64,000 nucleotides of DNA from Fuerstiella sp. (GTDB lineage Bacteria; Planctomycetota; Planctomycetia; Planctomycetales; Planctomycetaceae): assembly GCA_022843805.1 (NCBI GenBank), contig JALHMY010000020.1, positions 17,647-81,646 of the forward strand. Reading direction: 5' to 3'. The notes under the pieces were generated by a model. That model did no database searches and was not told the DNA's origin. It worked only from the letters and a program-made list of their open reading frames with translations. Of the stretch, positions 30,136 through 41,358 are shown one piece after another. Each line of letters opens with the position of its first letter. The stretch's first letter is position 1. The position numbers were made by a program, and so were the translations under genes.

Positions 30136-31257
30136 TCAGAAGCCACCGCCAGGGGCGACCCCCTGTGCACGATTGCCCAGTCGCTGCCATACCTGCTCAC
30201 CAATGTTTTCACTGATGGCCCGTGCGGAGCCGTCAACAAGTGCAACCTGAACAAGCCCCGGATGTGAACTTCCGGAAAATTCCCAGAACTGTCGCTTATT
30301 GGGACCCTCAAGAGTGGAAAACATGGTCGATGGTCCTCCCCATGCCCAGCCGTCACTTGCCCTCTGGAAGTCGGTTCGGGCTGCAGCAGCCAGATTCTTC
30401 ATCACATCGCCGCCAAACCGTTCTGCTTCGCCAATTAGAATCGTGTGCGATGTACCGTCAGAGACGTCAGCAATTCGAACGGAACTATTCGCAAAAAACA
30501 TACCAAGATTACCGGACAAGGCATTCATATTGTTGGTTGCCGTAGGCGCAGACCGTGTCAGAAAATCCAGCTGTGGACCTGTTGGATCCAGCAACGCACG
30601 AAACTGTCGGGCAAACATCAGACCAGAGCCACCACATCCCGCGTAGTCATTTCCCCCACCGACAACACCTGTCGACAGTTTCACGGTGACAAGGTTGGAA
30701 GAGTCCAGAGTATAGTTCTGACTGAACTTCTGCCGATCAAAGTCACCACGTCGTGTCGGACAGTAGAACAAAGGAACTTCCGTCTGCGCTGGCGCATTTC
30801 CAACAGCTCGCCACGGCGACGGAACAGCAATAATGTCGTATGTGATTTCCGAGTTTCCGAAGACATTGAAGTCCTGACGCCAGACATCGTAGACCGGCTT
30901 CTGTTCCACAAATGGCAGAATGTGCAGCATCCAGCTGGCACCATGCAGCCCAAGATTCTGCAGACTGTTCATCGGCTCAAACGGATCAACATATCGTGGC
31001 AGCAAAGCAGTGGGAGTCAGGTCCCCGGCCCAGCGAGTGACGATCTGGCCTGGCGGAAACACCAGATGAGCATCATGATAATTGTGCAGCGCCAACGCCA
31101 GCTGCTTCAGGTTGTTCTGGCATTGCGAACGACGAGCAGATTCTCGCGCCTGCTGAATCGCAGGCAACAGCAGCGCCACCAAAATGGCAATAATGGCAAT
31201 AACCACGAGCAACTCGATCAGCGTAAAACCGCTCGATCTTCCACGAAGAGTTCGCAT
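30136..31257 (-). CDS. DUF1559 pseudopilin-like protein
   Basis: A 373-residue protein from ATG 31257, preceded by a strong AAGGAAAG. The N-terminus is a textbook prepilin-like signal: RSSGFTLIELLVVIAIIAIL with Glu at +5, then ARESARRSQCQNNLKQLALALHNYHDAH, the standard DUF1559 opening. The C-terminal family box is HPGLVQVALVDGSARAIS. The upstream part of the open frame is excluded. The protein should sit in the inner membrane with its bulk outside. It is isolated, with its own terminator. Confidence 0.95.
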   Translation of the reverse strand: MRTLRGRSSGFTLIELLVVIAIIAILVALLLPAIQQARESARRSQCQNNLKQLALALHNYHDAHLVFPPGQIVTRWAGDLTPTALLPRYVDPFEPMNSLQNLGLHGASWMLHILPFVEQKPVYDVWRQDFNVFGNSEITYDIIAVPSPWRAVGNAPAQTEVPLFYCPTRRGDFDRQKFSQNYTLDSSNLVTVKLSTGVVGGGNDYAGCGGSGLMFARQFRALLDPTGPQLDFLTRSAPTATNNMNALSGNLGMFFANSSVRIADVSDGTSHTILIGEAERFGGDVMKNLAAAARTDFQRASDGWAWGGPSTMFSTLEGPNKRQFWEFSGSSHPGLVQVALVDGSARAISENIGEQVWQRLGNRAQGVAPGGGF

Positions 31258-31570
31258 AATTCTTTCCTTCTTATGAAACCGGAAAAGATGTATCCGGAAC
31301 CAACACCGCAGATTCCTCTTTTGTAACAACCCCTTGAACAGGTAATATTGTTCAGTCTTTTTCAGTTAAATCCCAGACCATTCAGATAAATTCCACCCAG
31401 TCACCGCTAAAAACAACGACTGCAACGGACGGTACAAAATTCCCTGAAATACCATCCCCCTCAACACACCATAAAATCTATACAAGCGAACACATCTGCG
31501 GTGATTGGGCGGAAATTCGGGATTCTCGGGGATCTGACAACAGCATGACCGACTTCACGTCTGTCATTGT
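31258..31570. other. intergenic region upstream of DUF1559 gene
   Basis: 313 bases between the DUF1559 start and the end of the aminotransferase gene. A short perfect inverted repeat TGAACA / TGTTCA with an 8-base spacer (31335-31354) could be an operator, but nothing ties it to a known regulator. No gene seen. Confidence 0.4.
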
Positions 31571-34084: not shown

Positions 34085-35389
34085 ATGATGCTCAATCCGT
34101 ATTCACAGGTTTTCCGGACGCAGGCCTTTGGCTCAGCCAGCGCCGTCAGCAACAGCAGCATATCATCAGGATGGCGGGCTGTGATGATGATCGCGATACT
34201 GACCATTGTCATCACTCCGGTGTCGGAATGTCTGGCTGGTTCGCAACCTCGCCTGATCGAAGTCTCCGCTGACTCAGCGCAATACGTCGGCCGCGTGATT
34301 GCGGTAGACAGTGATTTTTGTCACCTCATGGATCGTTTCGGAAGAATAGATCAGTTGCCCGTCGCATCGGTAAAGACGATGAAAGTTGTTTCCGAGCAGT
34401 TCCGGACCGCCACGCCAGGAGAAATGCGGGAAAAACTGCGACGTGAATTCCCCGGCTACGAAACATCCGGATCCACACATTACCTTGTTGTGGCGCCACG
34501 AGATCGAGTGGCTGACTACGCGACACTTTTCGAAGGCGTTTTCCGGCAGGTCGAACAATTCTTCAGGGTCCGAGGTTTTCGGGTTACCACTCCGGACAAC
34601 ATCCTTGTCGCCGTCGTGTTTGGAACCAGAGAAGAGTTCGAAGAATATTGCCGCCGTGACGATGTTGCTTCTCCCTCGTCACTCCGAGGTTATTACTCAC
34701 TTCGTTCGAACAGAGTTGCCCTTTTCGATGATTCCCGTCTGCTTTCTGCCGTGACCGAAAAACCAGCAGGCCAAACACCCGGTCCGGATGTTTTGCCGGG
34801 AATGCCCGGGACTTCCGACAACCTCGCAGTCACGGCATTGCTCAATGGCAAATCTGTGCAACTCGGCCTGAATCAGGCAGCCGCTATGTCCAGCGAAACA
34901 GCCAATGTGATCATCCATGAGGCGACTCATCAGGTCGGTCACAACATCGGCATCCACTCGCGGATGAATCGCACCCCGTCGTGGCTGATGGAGGGACTTG
35001 CTACCGTACTGGAAGCACCAGGCATGCGTGATAAATCCTCACATCCGGGATTAGAATCCCGTCTGAACAGCGAGCGTCTGCACTGGTTTCAAACACAATA
35101 TGAGTCTCGCCGCAGGCTCGGCGACATTGCCCGTATCGTAGCCGACGAGGAAATGTTCAGCACCCAGGTCCTTGATGCGTATAGTGCCGCATGGGCTCTG
35201 ACCTATTTCATGTCAGAGAATCCGGCCCGCACAACTCAGTTCGCCCGCTACATCCGGATCGTGGAAAGCCGGGATCCGACAAAGCTGTATTCGCCTGAAG
35301 ATCGCCTCAGGGATTTTCAGACAGCCTTCGGTGATATTGCGAGACTTGAAGTTGAGTTTCTGCGATTCATGGATCGTATGTCGGAATAA
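34085..35389 (+). CDS. DUF1570 zinc-metallopeptidase-like protein
   Basis: A 434-residue secreted protein. The signal peptide core is IAILTIVITPVSECLAG; the reported ATG gives a long polar lead, so the true start may be ATG 34184 or 34187. A short beta-module follows (YVGRVIAVDSDFCHLMDRFG). The catalytic block is I-I-H278-E-A-T-H282 with a downstream Glu in SWLMEGLATVLE, a gluzincin-like zinc site, as in the DUF1570 family. All putative ligands are present. Function is unknown; a cell-surface protease is plausible. A hairpin follows the stop. Confidence 0.88.
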   Translation: MMLNPYSQVFRTQAFGSASAVSNSSISSGWRAVMMIAILTIVITPVSECLAGSQPRLIEVSADSAQYVGRVIAVDSDFCHLMDRFGRIDQLPVASVKTMKVVSEQFRTATPGEMREKLRREFPGYETSGSTHYLVVAPRDRVADYATLFEGVFRQVEQFFRVRGFRVTTPDNILVAVVFGTREEFEEYCRRDDVASPSSLRGYYSLRSNRVALFDDSRLLSAVTEKPAGQTPGPDVLPGMPGTSDNLAVTALLNGKSVQLGLNQAAAMSSETANVIIHEATHQVGHNIGIHSRMNRTPSWLMEGLATVLEAPGMRDKSSHPGLESRLNSERLHWFQTQYESRRRLGDIARIVADEEMFSTQVLDAYSAAWALTYFMSENPARTTQFARYIRIVESRDPTKLYSPEDRLRDFQTAFGDIARLEVEFLRFMDRMSE

Positions 35390-35453: not shown

Positions 35454-36509
35454 CTATGCGGCCACGCTTTCCCCTGCCCTCGATCGTGCCTCAAGTTCCG
35501 CAAAAATCAACGCGCCTCTGACGACGGCAATGTCCGGATCCGGAGCAATTCGCACGGCAAGAATACGATCGGCGATCTGATGTTCTATCAGACGCTCTGT
35601 CAGCAGACTTGCGAATCCGGCCGTCTTGACCGCACCTCCGCTCAGCATGATTCCAAGTCGCTGATTCTGCAGGCTGCCTCGCAGTGATTCTGCGGACAAC
35701 AGCTGTACTATGGCTCGCGTCACCCGATCCAGTACCACGGTATATAGTTTCAGCATCATTCGTTCACGTTCACCCATCGCATGCCGCAGATTGATTTCAC
35801 TGCGCTGCTTCCATGCGCGAACATTTTCAAGATCCAGATAGCAGGCCCCGTCTTCATCCCACGAGTGGACTCGAAACTGCCTCGAAATCTCAGAATCAAT
35901 CCAGTTACTTCCCACATCCAGCGACAATGTTCCGAGCGCACGTCCCAGCCTCGAAATACAAATTTCGGTACTTTCCGCACCCATCACGATGCTGATCCCG
36001 CTAAACGCCGTACTGCTGCCCGCCGCCAGATTTGCAGCTTCTGCCGGATTGACAATCAGCGGCTCATATCCGGCCATTTGCACAAGCCGACACAAAAATT
36101 CTCGATTCCTGATCGCATAAGGTGTCTCATCAGCGGTGCCGGGAAGAGTAATGGCACACAGATTGAGACTTCCTGACGGCTCCGGAAGAATCGCCTGCAC
36201 AAGCAGATGCACCATCTGCCTCGCCGGAGGATCATCCGCTGGAATGACCCCGTCACAAATCAAAGGAGTACATGGAAGGCGACTGAGCCATCTCACCTGC
36301 TCAGCCTGATTGCCCACAACAGCAAGCGAATCTTCACAGACGGCATAAGAGATCTGCCGTTCTTCGAGCGTTCGTCGGTGAGGCTCTGTATTCCGGAGCA
36401 AAGCATATTCACAGCGTTCCGCAAAAAGCGACAGCCTCTCCGGATGTTCAGGATTGCGAAATGCTGATCGGATTCTGCTGCATCCAAAATCTATTGCTGT
36501 AATCATCAT
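35454..36509 (-). CDS. MreB-like actin-family ATPase paralogue
   Basis: A 351-residue cytosolic protein of the actin/Hsp70 ATPase superfamily. Phosphate-1 reads AIDFGCSRIRSAF (residues 5-17). The phosphate-2 region (171-190, GISIVMGAESTEICISRLG) is followed by GTLSLDVGSNWIDSEISRQF, which parallels the MreB 'VDIGGGTTE...R.GGD.FD..I' block, but the D-x-G-x-G core is replaced by M-G-A-E-S. The adenosine motif is GIMLSGGAVKTAGFASLLTE (286-305), followed by PDIAVVRGALIFAE. Nucleotide hydrolysis may be reduced; this is inferred from the altered loop. Its ATG overlaps the stop of the SLBB-like membrane protein gene (ATGA). It could be a polymerising or switch-like partner of that protein. It is not a canonical mreB: no mreC/mreD nearby. 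Confidence 0.8.
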   Translation of the reverse strand: MMITAIDFGCSRIRSAFRNPEHPERLSLFAERCEYALLRNTEPHRRTLEERQISYAVCEDSLAVVGNQAEQVRWLSRLPCTPLICDGVIPADDPPARQMVHLLVQAILPEPSGSLNLCAITLPGTADETPYAIRNREFLCRLVQMAGYEPLIVNPAEAANLAAGSSTAFSGISIVMGAESTEICISRLGRALGTLSLDVGSNWIDSEISRQFRVHSWDEDGACYLDLENVRAWKQRSEINLRHAMGERERMMLKLYTVVLDRVTRAIVQLLSAESLRGSLQNQRLGIMLSGGAVKTAGFASLLTERLIEHQIADRILAVRIAPDPDIAVVRGALIFAELEARSRAGESVAA

Positions 36510-38557
36510 TCGCCCTGTTCATGCAGAAAGTTGAGCGCCCGGTCAAGACTTGCCATACCTTTAACAGGTTCCGAAATCCCCGGCCCTGCTTCCAGCTTCT
36601 CTTTCGATTCACTCGGGTGAGCACTGCCAGCCTGCGTGCCTGTGTTCAACCCACCGGCAGACAATCCGCCAGCAGACGATGCAACAGTCGCCGTGACGCT
36701 GTGATTAGATCGACGCCGGTCCGCGTTCATTGACATGTGCGGACCAGCCAGCTGAGTGTGCCCCGCATCAATCCTCAGTCGTCGCGGCCCAGCCGGGCGG
36801 CCAAACAGTGAGACTCGCAGAGGAAGCCTTGCTTCACACAAATCAACAGGCAGACGATTGGCAATCAGATCGTTCAGATCCGAAAAAATCTCTGTTGCCT
36901 GACCTTCCGCCGAAACCGGCAACGGAACCGCGGCCATTTGTGTCGTCACCGTGGATACTGACTGGTGCGATACTGGCGAAACGGACACTGGCGGAACAGA
37001 CACTGGCTGCACCTGAGCGATCGAGACCTCTGAAGCAATGGCGGCCTCCTGCCTGCTGCCATCACCGCCTGCATTCGGCGTTACTGGTTGTGAGGAAGGC
37101 CGTATCCAGTCACCGCCAAACCATTCCGATTTCTGCACAAGCTCCACTGCAGTCGGCTCTGAGACAACAATACCTTCCCGTTTGCTGAGCTGGACTGGCG
37201 GTTCGGTATCAATTTTCGGAGACGCTGGCTTTTGAGAATGGTCCACAGATTCCGAGTCCTTTCCTGACACAGCTTTCAGCGGTTGAATCTGGCTTAGAGA
37301 TCTGCTGTGATTGTCCGCGACTGAGACACTTTCCGGCGAACTGCCTCGCAGAGTATTCATACTCACGGTTCGCTGTGCCCGCATCTCGGCCTCCGATTTC
37401 AACCAGCCGAATACAATCAAACCACCGGCAACCAGAAGACCTCCGATAAATGCAAGGCTCCAGCCGTTCATGCCGGTCGCGACTTCCGCAGCGGCCGGAG
37501 TTTCCCGCGGCGGAACCGGGGCATTCTCCTGCAGGGATGCAGCAACGGGCAGGATCGAAGAAAGTTCAGCGATATCAGCCCCGGACGAGATTGAAGGAAA
37601 TGCCTTTCCTGATTTTTTCTCGTACTGGCTGCTGACCATTTGCACGGACAAGTCGCCCGACACGGATTCCTGCTGGTCAGGATGATCTGGCTCCAGCTCC
37701 GGATCACCGGCCGATCCACCCGCAGACCCGCTGAATGCCGCTGGAAACGGCTGAGGTATTGCTAAAGCGGGCGAAGACGTCGAAAGGACTCCACCAGCGT
37801 CGACCGGCCCAGGCGTCTCCGGGATACCAGGGGACATTGATGCAGAAGCATCCAAAGAACTCTGCAACTCGGGATTCACCGAAGCCTCAGCGGTCCTGTT
37901 TTCAGCAGCCCCTGAATTCTCTCCGGACCACTCACTCACCATCGGCCGAAAACCAGTTCCGGCGCGGGTCGGGCGGATACTCGCAGCGGCAAGCATCAGC
38001 ACGTCACCGTGTTCAACTTCAAATGCGGGCTGAACAGAACGTCGTGATCGGCCTGGTTTTGCTGAAATCAGCTGAACATCCACAACCCTGTTCAGTGGCA
38101 GCTGGCAGTTCAAAAGTACGTCAGCAACGACAACAGGAACCGAACTGCTGGTCTGCAGAGCAAGTACAACAGGCCGCCCCTCTTCAATCAGCACGGCATT
38201 GGGCTGAAACCCCGTCCTTGTCTGCCCGACAGCACTGACGACGATTACGTCGCCCCGCATCAGTACCGGGCCAGCAACCGTCGAACCCCGTGACACGACT
38301 TCGGTCCACTGCTGACTTCCTGAAGCACGGATCAGGAGGACATTTGAGTTCTCCGAAATCATTTGTGCAGCGTCGAGTGCAGCGTTCAGACTCAGTGGCT
38401 GATCGGCCTCACAACGAAACGTGTTTGGCCTCGCCACATCCCCAATTACGGCACAGGTATCCTCGCTCCGGCCGTCATTCGCCAGCGCGCTAATTGTCAC
38501 TGCTGGCATCAGACAGAAGATTGCCACAATGCCCGTGAATTTCCTGAGCCCATCCAT
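36506..38557 (-). CDS. secreted SLBB-like one-pass membrane protein
   Basis: A 683-residue protein. Signal peptide 1-27; residues about 35-195 hold two related beta-grasp modules resembling SLBB domains of polysaccharide exporters (VIGDVARPNTFRCEADQPLS with LMRGDVIVVSAVG, and LLNCQLPLNRVVDVQLISA with VEHGDVLMLAAASI). A long Pro/Ser/Gly-rich linker is followed by one transmembrane helix (about 367-386, SLAFIGGLLVAGGLIVFGW). A 297-residue tail, predicted cytosolic, ends in SLDRALNFLHEQGE. It is translationally coupled to the MreB-like gene. The combination suggests an outside-inside link between an envelope ligand and an actin-like protein (inference). The SLBB assignment is tentative. Confidence 0.72.
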   Translation of the reverse strand: MDGLRKFTGIVAIFCLMPAVTISALANDGRSEDTCAVIGDVARPNTFRCEADQPLSLNAALDAAQMISENSNVLLIRASGSQQWTEVVSRGSTVAGPVLMRGDVIVVSAVGQTRTGFQPNAVLIEEGRPVVLALQTSSSVPVVVADVLLNCQLPLNRVVDVQLISAKPGRSRRSVQPAFEVEHGDVLMLAAASIRPTRAGTGFRPMVSEWSGENSGAAENRTAEASVNPELQSSLDASASMSPGIPETPGPVDAGGVLSTSSPALAIPQPFPAAFSGSAGGSAGDPELEPDHPDQQESVSGDLSVQMVSSQYEKKSGKAFPSISSGADIAELSSILPVAASLQENAPVPPRETPAAAEVATGMNGWSLAFIGGLLVAGGLIVFGWLKSEAEMRAQRTVSMNTLRGSSPESVSVADNHSRSLSQIQPLKAVSGKDSESVDHSQKPASPKIDTEPPVQLSKREGIVVSEPTAVELVQKSEWFGGDWIRPSSQPVTPNAGGDGSRQEAAIASEVSIAQVQPVSVPPVSVSPVSHQSVSTVTTQMAAVPLPVSAEGQATEIFSDLNDLIANRLPVDLCEARLPLRVSLFGRPAGPRRLRIDAGHTQLAGPHMSMNADRRRSNHSVTATVASSAGGLSAGGLNTGTQAGSAHPSESKEKLEAGPGISEPVKGMASLDRALNFLHEQGE

Positions 38558-38844: not shown

Positions 38845-41358
38845 TTACTCCAGCAACTTCAGCTTGTCGATCAGATTTCGCTTCTGAAGGGCCTTGATTT
38901 CTTCCTGCAATTTCTGCTGGTCTTCAAGAATGGCTTTCAGATCCCGCAGCGCTTCATGGAACTCAGCAAGGTCGCGAACGTTCTCCAGAATCACCTTAAG
39001 CTGCGAAATCACCAGCTCCACACGTTCAAGGGACGTATCAACCAGAAGTCTGACTTTTTTCCCGGACTGAGCTGCCACGCCGAACTCACTCAGCACACGA
39101 TCGGCATCTGCCATTGGCTTGTCTGCAATATCCGTCAGAGGATTCAGGATCTCGTCCCGCATGTTCTGCGCGAGCTGCTGAGGAGGAATTGCATTGTTAA
39201 TCAGTTGCTGAATAATTTCATCAAAACCCTCCACAATCGAACGGATTTCATTCGTCTGCCGTCGCAGATTGCTGCCGCTTCTGGCCGCACAGGTGGATAC
39301 TCCCATCCGATCCTGTGGCAGAATGATCGAGTTGTCTCCGGAATCGAGACGGTCAGCAGGTTCCCGATGAAAGACCAGATCCTCGCGAATCTGCTCCAGC
39401 TGGGCAATCACTTCTTCCATCCTGCGCCGCAGTGTGATTTCGCGTGTGTACAGCAGTGATAACAGATCTTCATTGCTGACGATTCGAAACAACATTGGTT
39501 CACTTCGGGTCATCCCGGGCCCCGGTCGCGAATTACCATCCACAGCCGCCACGGCAAGCGTGAGTGTCTGACCTTCCGAAAGATCAAGTGGCTTTACGTC
39601 AAAAACCTCCGTCGGCTCGTCATCGCTTCTTCGCAGCTCAAATTCCGTCTGCCCGGCCTGCGGAAGCTGATGGAACGGGCGAGGACGCCATTCGGATTCA
39701 TCATCGACCAGAAACTGGAACCCGGCTGAGGCCAGACCATAGTCGTCCCTGATGGTTCCGGTCACAGGTATCCGCGCAAATCGCGTCACAGCATTATCGA
39801 TTCCCACACCTCTGGCCACGATCACCGGCGGTTTGTCCTCGACACCGCGAATTCGCAATACCTCAGGATTCACCGACATTACGCCGTCGTCGTCATGCAG
39901 GAAAAACCTGAGAGGTGTATTGGAAACGACAGGCAATGCTCCATCCCCGGGATCCGCTGCTGACAGACCGGATGATGAAGAGTCAACGACTGAAGCCTGC
40001 CGAGTCTCACCGGATGAACCATCATCTCCCGCATCCCCGGTCTCTGCAGCAATCACCTGAAACACCGCGGAAAGCGTCATTCCATCGGCTGAAATGAGAG
40101 GCTGCCGCCCAGTGGATATCGCATGGACACCTCGTCGACCCACAACATGAGACGACTCACGATCTCCCGACAGTTCAAATTCACCCGAAACAATTCTTGC
40201 AGACTGCAACGGCTTGGCGGAAAGTGCATTCAGGCGAAACTCGGTCCAGACAGGCAATGCAACTTCGCTGCCTGTGACTTCAATTTGGGTCTCACGCAGC
40301 TGATTCCAGCCGGTATACTCGGGGTACTGGCACTCCAGTTTGATCGCATCCAGCCGGGGAATGCTGACCGGTTCGATTCGCCATGGCTGCACGCTGCGAT
40401 AGTCGCCAGCCAGCAATTCGATGGTGATCGGTTCCTGCAGTCGGGTCATCACAAAGCGCCAGGTTCGATCCGATGTGGGTGACACAAACGTCCGACTCAG
40501 ACTGCCGTCGCTGCGAATCACGTCAACCCGAATTCGATCAGGAACAACCCAGGCAACACCTTCCCGAGGGCCACCTTCCGGCACTGTAATTTCCATTTCA
40601 AAATCGGCGCCGCGGGGGTGCAGATAAATCCTGTCATTATCCCGCTGACGAAACTCCACTCGCCGATCGCCAGGCTGTGCAACCACAAGCACCTGAAGAT
40701 CCGTCGATCTCTGATAATAGGAAACGTCACACCGAATGAAAGCATTCCACCAGCGTTGCAGTGAACCGGGCTGCACCAAAGCAAAACCGGTTACGGACAT
40801 GACTGCGATCGCCGCATAAACGGCAAGCCGCCGGATCGAACGCACATCAAAAACCTCATCGGCCGACAGCGAACCGGTCAGTTCCCCGGCTTCAACAGCC
40901 GCCCTCTGAAGCATGTCTGCCACCAGAGGACCATCCAGTGGATATCCGCCCGCGGCTTCCACTGAGATGATCAGCCGATCCTGAAACTGTGGAAACCGAC
41001 GTTCCAGCAATACGGCCAGATCAATATCCCTGACCGTGCGCACAAGCGGAAACACGATTCGAGAGCCGAGTACCCACATGGTCCCCGGCAGCAGCACCGA
41101 CAGAAAGATGGCTCGCAGTCCAACAGGAAGTTCAAGCTTCTGGATGGCAAACCAGCCCAGATCGATTCCCGTCGTTACCCAGAACACGATTCCTGCAAGA
41201 CAAATGAGCAGCAGAATGCCTGACACCATGGCATCACGCCGCAGCCGAACCCTGACATCGGTCAGTAACTGCTGGACGGCCTGCGGAAGAGAAATCCGTG
41301 TCGTCGACAATCGGGAGTGATGAGATTCACTTAACATGGAAGAAGCGTCAGCAAACAA
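38845..41358 (-). CDS. DUF4175-like membrane protein
   Basis: An 837-residue protein with two N-terminal transmembrane helices (GILLLICLAGIVFWVTTGI and AIFLSVLLPGTMWVLGS), a third after about residue 190, the block DIDLAVLLERRFPQFQDRLI, and a large beta-rich periplasmic part. The last about 150 residues are a predicted coiled coil (VISQLKVILENVRDLAEFHEALRDL) ending KLLE. This is the layout of DUF4175-type proteins that accompany MoxR/VWA clusters. It starts 33 bases after the second VWA gene and closes the operon. The 287-base gap to the next gene has no strong terminator. Confidence 0.8.
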   Translation of the reverse strand: MFADASSMLSESHHSRLSTTRISLPQAVQQLLTDVRVRLRRDAMVSGILLLICLAGIVFWVTTGIDLGWFAIQKLELPVGLRAIFLSVLLPGTMWVLGSRIVFPLVRTVRDIDLAVLLERRFPQFQDRLIISVEAAGGYPLDGPLVADMLQRAAVEAGELTGSLSADEVFDVRSIRRLAVYAAIAVMSVTGFALVQPGSLQRWWNAFIRCDVSYYQRSTDLQVLVVAQPGDRRVEFRQRDNDRIYLHPRGADFEMEITVPEGGPREGVAWVVPDRIRVDVIRSDGSLSRTFVSPTSDRTWRFVMTRLQEPITIELLAGDYRSVQPWRIEPVSIPRLDAIKLECQYPEYTGWNQLRETQIEVTGSEVALPVWTEFRLNALSAKPLQSARIVSGEFELSGDRESSHVVGRRGVHAISTGRQPLISADGMTLSAVFQVIAAETGDAGDDGSSGETRQASVVDSSSSGLSAADPGDGALPVVSNTPLRFFLHDDDGVMSVNPEVLRIRGVEDKPPVIVARGVGIDNAVTRFARIPVTGTIRDDYGLASAGFQFLVDDESEWRPRPFHQLPQAGQTEFELRRSDDEPTEVFDVKPLDLSEGQTLTLAVAAVDGNSRPGPGMTRSEPMLFRIVSNEDLLSLLYTREITLRRRMEEVIAQLEQIREDLVFHREPADRLDSGDNSIILPQDRMGVSTCAARSGSNLRRQTNEIRSIVEGFDEIIQQLINNAIPPQQLAQNMRDEILNPLTDIADKPMADADRVLSEFGVAAQSGKKVRLLVDTSLERVELVISQLKVILENVRDLAEFHEALRDLKAILEDQQKLQEEIKALQKRNLIDKLKLLE

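Follow-up and report, generated by a model that had tools for sequence, protein, structure and literature searches.

RodZ is the single-pass membrane partner of MreB, and in PilM-PilN, as in FtsA with its partners, an actin-fold protein at the membrane grips a short peptide that belongs to a membrane or linker protein. The present study deals with a gene pair of comparable design in a stretch of 64,000 nucleotides from Fuerstiella sp. (assembly GCA_022843805.1, contig JALHMY010000020.1, positions 17,647 to 81,646 of the forward strand), which at its full length is called the window here. The pair encodes an actin-fold protein, P0001, and an SLBB-like single-pass membrane protein, P0002. It was found that P0001 is a divergent member of the volactin family, and that volactin and the SLBB-like membrane protein are a conserved unit in the window's own family (Planctomycetaceae-like, hereafter the home family, f1, as opposed to the other planctomycete families). 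Volactin (VolA, HVO_2015) of Haloferax volcanii, to the family of which (PF25216) P0001 belongs over its full length, is described in the accessible part of the original report as forming dynamic filaments with tips bound to the membrane (PMC10869688). In the same part its authors consider as-yet-unknown volactin-binding factors that regulate polymerisation (PMC10869688). Volactin, which is in print as a cell-shape actin of haloarchaea, is common in Planctomycetota. In a literature search covering parts of papers, a single paper had both volactin and planctomycetes in its text, with no connection of the two in the parts covered, and there was no mention of DUF7139, PF25216 or PF23600.

The P0001 gene (35454-36509, 351 residues) was assigned by its match to PF25216 together with a predicted actin fold. 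The P0002 gene (36506-38557, 683 residues) lies directly upstream on the same minus strand, which also carries all features of the two proteins given below, and was assigned by structure, hydropathy and its homologues upstream of home-family volactins. The two open reading frames (ORFs) have the four bases ATGA at 36506-36509 in common, where the stop of the partner overlaps the start of the volactin, as the original prediction had stated. The window reads ATGATG at this place, and with the second of these starts the overlap would shrink to 1 base. Volactin is present in single copy in the host genome.

The arrangement is highly conserved. A home-family locus was regarded as testable when it contained the start of volactin with no fewer than 900 bases ahead of it, which held for 111 of 118 loci; those dropped were startless fragments (L041, L042, L221) or had less than 900 bases upstream (L039, L189, L190, L194). 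The partner, recognised by a conserved box in its tail, was found directly upstream of volactin in 110 of the 111 testable loci, with a 4-base overlap in 96, a 1-base overlap in 6 and a gap of 39-111 bases in 8. The sole testable locus without the tail box (L218) is on a contig of only 3,734 bases. The tail-box profile was built on the home-family partners themselves, and the independent test is the comparison of genomes with and without volactin. The box was found in 20/20 volactin-positive genomes of the home family, picked among good assemblies, in 1/20 volactin-negative ones, listed of 35, and in 0/10 genomes outside the family. In the one volactin-negative genome that has it, the box lies about 80 bases before the contig end, and therefore volactin is possibly just absent from that assembly. 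The pair with its 4-base overlap is also present in the genome taken to be that of Planctopirus limnophila. Homologues of the two genes are thus not scattered, and the conserved adjacency that had been proposed as a check on the pair was recovered.

P0001 matches PF25216 at 150.5 bits (cut-off 35) over positions 1-321 of the 321 of the profile. It had been described earlier as an MreB-like actin. The actin fold was confirmed, but the MreB identity is ruled out, as P0001 reaches only 21.7 bits with Pfam MreB_Mbl (PF06723; cut-off 27) and the same genome has a separate true MreB gene (397.5 bits). The predicted structure, modelled from 18 sequences, displays an actin fold with a predicted local distance difference test (pLDDT) value of 89.5 and a predicted template modelling score of 0.88. 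In a Foldseek search of this model MreB came top (expectation value, E, 3.8e-16), and in VIA-align the scores were Z 27.7 for MamK (root-mean-square deviation, rmsd, 3.0 over 298 residues), 27.0 for BeeR, 26.6 for crenactin and 26.2 for MreB. MamK and BeeR of Verrucomicrobiota are the nearest solved structures, and BeeR was also the best match of a home-family profile among PDB sequences (E 2.8e-6). BeeR is stated in the available portion of its report to retain the residues of ATP binding and hydrolysis (PMC11929497). The same profile has a weak similarity to PilM (E 0.004). The NCBIfam models gave only matches far below cut-off with P0001 (FtsA, PilM, MamK, salactin and syringactin). The PilM model TIGR01175 scored 16.4 bits (cut-off 133) and the FtsA model TIGR01174 17.4 bits (cut-off 175.85), so that PilM and FtsA are a working analogy for P0001, which is a member of neither; no match to the BeeR model NF053558 (cut-off 530 bits) was listed up to E 1. 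P0001 is a divergent volactin with an actin fold over the whole chain, and not an MreB.

The partner P0002 has no Pfam match over cut-off and no NCBIfam match, and the Pfam SLBB family gave nothing up to E 1. Its fold was recognised from the predicted structure of the first 229 residues, which contains two beta-grasp domains. The overall pLDDT of this model is 76.9, and of the 16 ten-residue blocks between residues 31 and 190, 13 exceed 85. The first, residues 32-110 (38228-38464), is SLBB-like and predicted to lie outside the cytosol; it matches Wza (7xfd) with Z 9.3 and rmsd 2.5 over 76 residues, and with a Foldseek E of 1.7e-6. The second, residues 117-194 (37976-38209), was modelled with high pLDDT and has ubiquitin-like matches only, with Z under 8. 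In homologues Pfam itself recognises SLBB, in 31 of 55 N-termini (taken from every second of the 110 home-family loci) and in 4 of 16 whole partner proteins, P0002 being among the 16. The Pfam scans did not list the Poly_export domain for P0002, the 16 whole homologues or the 55 N-termini. Thus P0002 has the SLBB fold in common with Wza-type OPX exporters but differs from them in its single central membrane helix and long cytosolic tail, with Poly_export not listed.

P0002 begins with a sequence that resembles a signal peptide, as judged by eye, and has one strong membrane segment at residues ~368-386 (37400-37456; hydropathy 2.25), after which about 297 residues remain. The earlier description of a secreted SLBB-like protein with one membrane helix and a 297-residue tail is therefore in agreement with the structure match and the hydropathy, and both folds expected for the pair, actin and SLBB, appear in the predicted structures. 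Of 111 home-family partners, 106 have a membrane-like segment ahead of the tail box, and the stretch after the helix is richer in Lys and Arg than the stretch before it in 76 of these 106. The likeness to MreB-RodZ consists of an actin fold and a single-pass membrane partner, but the orientation of RodZ is the opposite, the predicted arrangement of P0002 being a folded domain outside and a tail inside. Behind the outer domains of P0002 follow the membrane segment, a low-complexity linker, the box of about 50 residues (36728-36883), predicted to be cytosolic and defined by a profile grown on home-family partners, and a C-terminal peptide, SLDRALNFLHEQGE (36509-36550). This peptide is of the SLDRAL kind in home-family partners, and from the motif counts it is proposed as a volactin-docking motif. 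The motif occurs in 93/110 home-family partners as compared to 33/1430 control windows (2.3%) and 56/2200 shuffles (2.5%), the controls being windows of the same tails and shuffles that guard against composition only. It should be noted that the patterns for the C-termini, in the home family and outside it, were composed after viewing the same sequences, and that a first, too strict pattern (36/111) was loosened to the version giving 93/110.

The nucleotide site of P0001 is altered. Its phosphate-2 loop, MGAES (residues 176-180, 35970-35984, by alignment to MreB), had been singled out in the original prediction as changed, and it indeed reads VMGAES, with Val at the position aligned to the MreB Asp, against DIGGGT in the MreB of the same genome. 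P0001 thus has neither the MreB-type loop D-x-G-G-G-T nor the loop S-x-G-[GA]-G-M of what we call canonical-loop volactins, a subgroup named here on an unpublished criterion. Outside the home family Ser replaces the Asp in 38/39 volactins, that is in 33/33 of other planctomycetes, 2/2 of haloarchaea, 2/2 of phages and one of two volactins fused to PilT, the other having Cys; this comparison counts the fusions apart and omits one further volactin of locus L100 (ORF over 480 residues). In 114 home-family proteins the same position is Val in 45, Ser in 25, Asp in 11, Tyr in 11 and Thr in 10. Volactins of other planctomycetes retain the third Gly of the loop in 33/33 cases and those of the home family in 9/114, and the phosphate-1 Asp is present in 33/33 and 97/114, respectively. 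Judging from these alignments, the changed phosphate-2 loop is a clade trait which has been eroded within the home family, and this erosion suggests that the clade hydrolyses little ATP, if any. Median pairwise identity of volactins is 28.8% within the home family and 50.0% among other planctomycetes, 40.9% between the latter and haloarchaea, and 21% between the home family and volactins outside it. In a tree the home-family volactins form one clade on a long branch. The tree was used for this monophyly only, as its rooting is unreliable, with a very long MreB branch and five mislabelled duplicate rows (L119-L123); the haloarchaeal placement in it is weakly supported (91/60). The volactins offer a natural series from Ser-loop forms to a loop-eroded actin.

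The volactin family is widely distributed. Among 392 Planctomycetota genomes sampled, 136 had PF25216 over cut-off, and many of these belong to families other than the home family. Within the home family it matched in 135 of 170 genomes and 35 were without a match, and in a sample of the class 78 of 297 genomes were over cut-off, every one of the home family. Four genomes of a further family, f3 (G043, G562, G632, G680), showed weak volactin matches of 20.8-23.1 bits, under cut-off, in open frames of ~360-390 residues, possibly those of another actin-like family. In 14 control genomes PF25216 gave a signal in E. coli and Haloferax volcanii, over cut-off in one of these two. With a volactin query from a planctomycete of another family, haloarchaeal plasmid genes were found at ~41% identity (best E 2e-83) in four records, three of Haloarcula and one of Natrinema. 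Volactins also occur in two huge uncultured phages of 485 and 595 kb (L241:3971-5014 and L242:3992-5011), and four haloarchaeal and phage proteins scored 228-466 bits with PF25216, the haloarchaeal plasmid ones 447-466. A search of viral contigs with P0001 gave no relative. The haloarchaeal comparison rests on the plasmid volactins and not on VolA of H. volcanii itself: these are 36-44% identical to volactins of other planctomycete families, and P0001 is far more divergent. Unlike the plasmid volactins, which have a DUF7139 neighbour, P0001 has an SLBB membrane partner and lacks the S-x-G-x-G-M loop. A separate actin-like protein has been reported from the engulfing planctomycete 'Ca. Uab amorphum', which the available part of that study groups with eukaryotic and Asgard actins (PMC6906331).

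An adaptor gene upstream of volactin is thus shown for the home family, and it is frequent elsewhere. Of 35 loci of other planctomycete families, 22 carry a coiled-coil-like upstream ORF that ends in a sequence of the G-I-x-x-x-L-x-R-L-K-x-L kind. At four loci, L102, L114, L118 and L125, volactin is preceded by another type of small protein, which starts with MWI and ends in a short L-L-S-like motif, in five (L109-L112, L129) volactin is inside a long ORF, and four (L094, L101, L117, L124) fit none of these arrangements. Two of the long ORFs, from two planctomycete families, join volactin to a PilT/PilU-family ATPase (L109:1224-4202 and L110:8928-12317; 425.7 and 431.7 bits, cut-off 319.1). 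In the family f30 (L111, L112, L129) volactin is the C-terminal domain behind a long acidic, charged N-terminal region. In both haloarchaeal loci (L239:3992-6047 and L240:3920-6023) the gene upstream of volactin encodes a DUF7139 membrane protein, the C-terminal tail of which is long and hydrophilic, and this protein is a candidate membrane anchor of archaeal volactin. The adaptor rule thereby gives candidate membrane partners in two lineages, the SLBB protein in the home family and DUF7139 in haloarchaea. In phage locus L241 an upstream ORF of 207 residues overlaps volactin. When a profile of the adaptor C-termini of other planctomycete families was run against 185 targets, in which upstream proteins were listed twice, the Natrinema upstream protein came first (E 0.0014) and that of phage L241 next (E 0.029); the Haloarcula protein was not significant (E 2.4) and that of phage L242 did not appear. 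This suggests a docking peptide that may be common to adaptors across lineages, although for the home family the profile test gave no support. A docking motif common to the adaptors of the home family and of other planctomycetes, which look alike by eye, was thus not supported.

The explanation which we favour, with a probability of about 0.6, is that the pair encodes a translationally coupled, membrane-tethered actin scaffold beneath an extracytoplasmic SLBB-like domain, the scaffold operating much as FtsA or PilM do. The translational coupling together with the co-occurrence of the two genes points to complex formation, and at the cytoplasmic membrane the products would form one complex. The partner would place its SLBB-like and second beta-grasp domains outside, cross the membrane with one helix and keep its low-complexity tail in the cytosol, where the tail box and the helix-like C-terminal peptide could dock on the actin. 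As the domain outside is SLBB-like and the tail inside bears the peptide, it is most likely the tail that brings the actin to the membrane, where the actin could form a scaffold or a short filament, the state of which would depend on what the outer domain binds. Since the nearest solved SLBB folds are those of polysaccharide exporters (Wza), the input is likely to be the condition of the envelope glycan or of the machinery that exports it. An outside state could in this way be coupled to an actin-like polymer, which was also the idea of the original prediction; binding within the complex, its orientation, polymerisation, ligand and output are what we infer. The adaptor genes are natural candidates for the volactin-binding factors considered by the Haloferax authors. 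A more far-reaching proposal, which is tentative and clearly short of even odds, is that volactin is a mobile actin system common to planctomycetes, haloarchaea and huge phages, and that each lineage has its own upstream adaptor with a docking peptide. In the home family the adaptor would have become a transmembrane SLBB receptor and the ATPase loop would have been lost, which would have made a receptor-coupled scaffold out of a cytomotive filament, and DUF7139 would be the haloarchaeal anchor. Several observations weigh against the membrane-tethered scaffold. A 4-base overlap was also found in 29 of 186 same-strand neighbours (from part of the home-family loci, volactin pairs included), the positive-inside pattern is missing in 30/106 home-family partners with a membrane segment, and 17/110 partners do not have the C-terminal motif as written, some of them having near variants and others none. 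The home-family C-termini were not above reversed controls with the adaptor profile from other families (0.7 vs 2.0 bits), and the divergence of the home-family volactins would also fit weak constraint. The presence of the pair in the genome taken to be that of P. limnophila makes the question directly testable, as deletion mutants have been made in this organism according to the accessible text of PMC10632474.

Membership of P0001 in the volactin family would also fit a dynamic, ATP-driven, cell-shaping filament as in Haloferax, where volactin filaments are dynamic with membrane-bound tips (PMC10869688, from the part available), the partner then being a mere membrane anchor or nucleator without any sensing. 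If Haloferax volactin, too, has Ser in place of the Asp, as nearly all volactins outside the home family do, the missing Asp would not by itself have to halt dynamics. The loop of the home family is however eroded further, as seen in its third Gly, and an SLBB domain that is still recognisable in more than half of the partner N-termini would be superfluous for a plain anchor, which makes this explanation rather unlikely. It could also be that the pair is part of a polysaccharide or a pilus/secretion apparatus, with a PilM-like actin and an SLBB protein docked on an outer-membrane channel. The nearness of the SLBB fold to Wza, the two natural fusions to a PilT/PilU-family ATPase and the weak profile similarity to PilM speak for it, but the score with the PilM model itself is far below cut-off, Poly_export was not listed in the partners, and the neighbourhood gives little sign of such an apparatus. 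Among the neighbour families listed for 38 home-family loci none beyond the pair occurs in more than 8, the most widespread being DUF1570 (8/38), and the recurrent neighbours listed include no recognisable pilus or fts operon. A neighbour with a pilin-like N-terminus, judged by eye, occurs in just 4 of the 38 loci (window member 30136-31329), and such proteins have many paralogues in planctomycetes. A role of the pair in export or in a pilus is thus, in our judgement, quite improbable.

The original prediction had also pointed to the unusual division of planctomycetes without FtsZ. According to the available part of PMC10632474, division is asymmetric in Planctomycetia, the class of the window judging from its taxon names, ftsZ is missing from all planctomycetes, and mreB is reported to be dispensable. 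Together with the actin fold and the membrane anchor, the loss of ftsZ could favour a division or budding scaffold that replaces FtsZ. However, volactin over cut-off is confined to the home family in the class sample, and the genomes sampled from other families therefore get by without it, as do the 35 home-family genomes without a match. Such a scaffold is very improbable, and the proposed link to division was not supported. The membrane-tethered scaffold with an SLBB-like outer domain remains the reading we prefer.

The surroundings of the pair in the window were compared between loci as well. A same-strand block begins upstream after a gap of 287 bases, and the original prediction had considered this MoxR/VWA/DUF4175 block as related. 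BatA/VWA, DUF58 and a MoxR-type AAA ATPase were matched in the block, but a DUF4175 match was absent in the Pfam scan listed up to E 1, and the first gene (38845-41358) and the gene behind it had no Pfam match over cut-off. No more than 2 of the 38 home-family loci, the window included, have genes of the block next to the pair, many contigs ending before a block 10 kb distant could appear; a functional link of the block with the pair was rejected on this count. A promoter and terminator scan yielded no more than shuffles did. On the other side lies a DUF1570/Peptidase-MA-like HExxH protein on the plus strand (34085-35389; PF07607, 87.8 bits), convergent with volactin. DUF1570 adjoins volactin in at least 32/115 home-family loci, in convergent orientation, and in at least 6/35 loci of other planctomycete families, on the same strand, the counts from the profile search being lower bounds because of contig ends. 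DUF1570 is thus a recurrent neighbour in a minority of loci, and its link to volactin is one of association only. The host genome has three DUF1570 matches; the window protein bears the motif HEATH, and HExxH was seen in the three members looked at.

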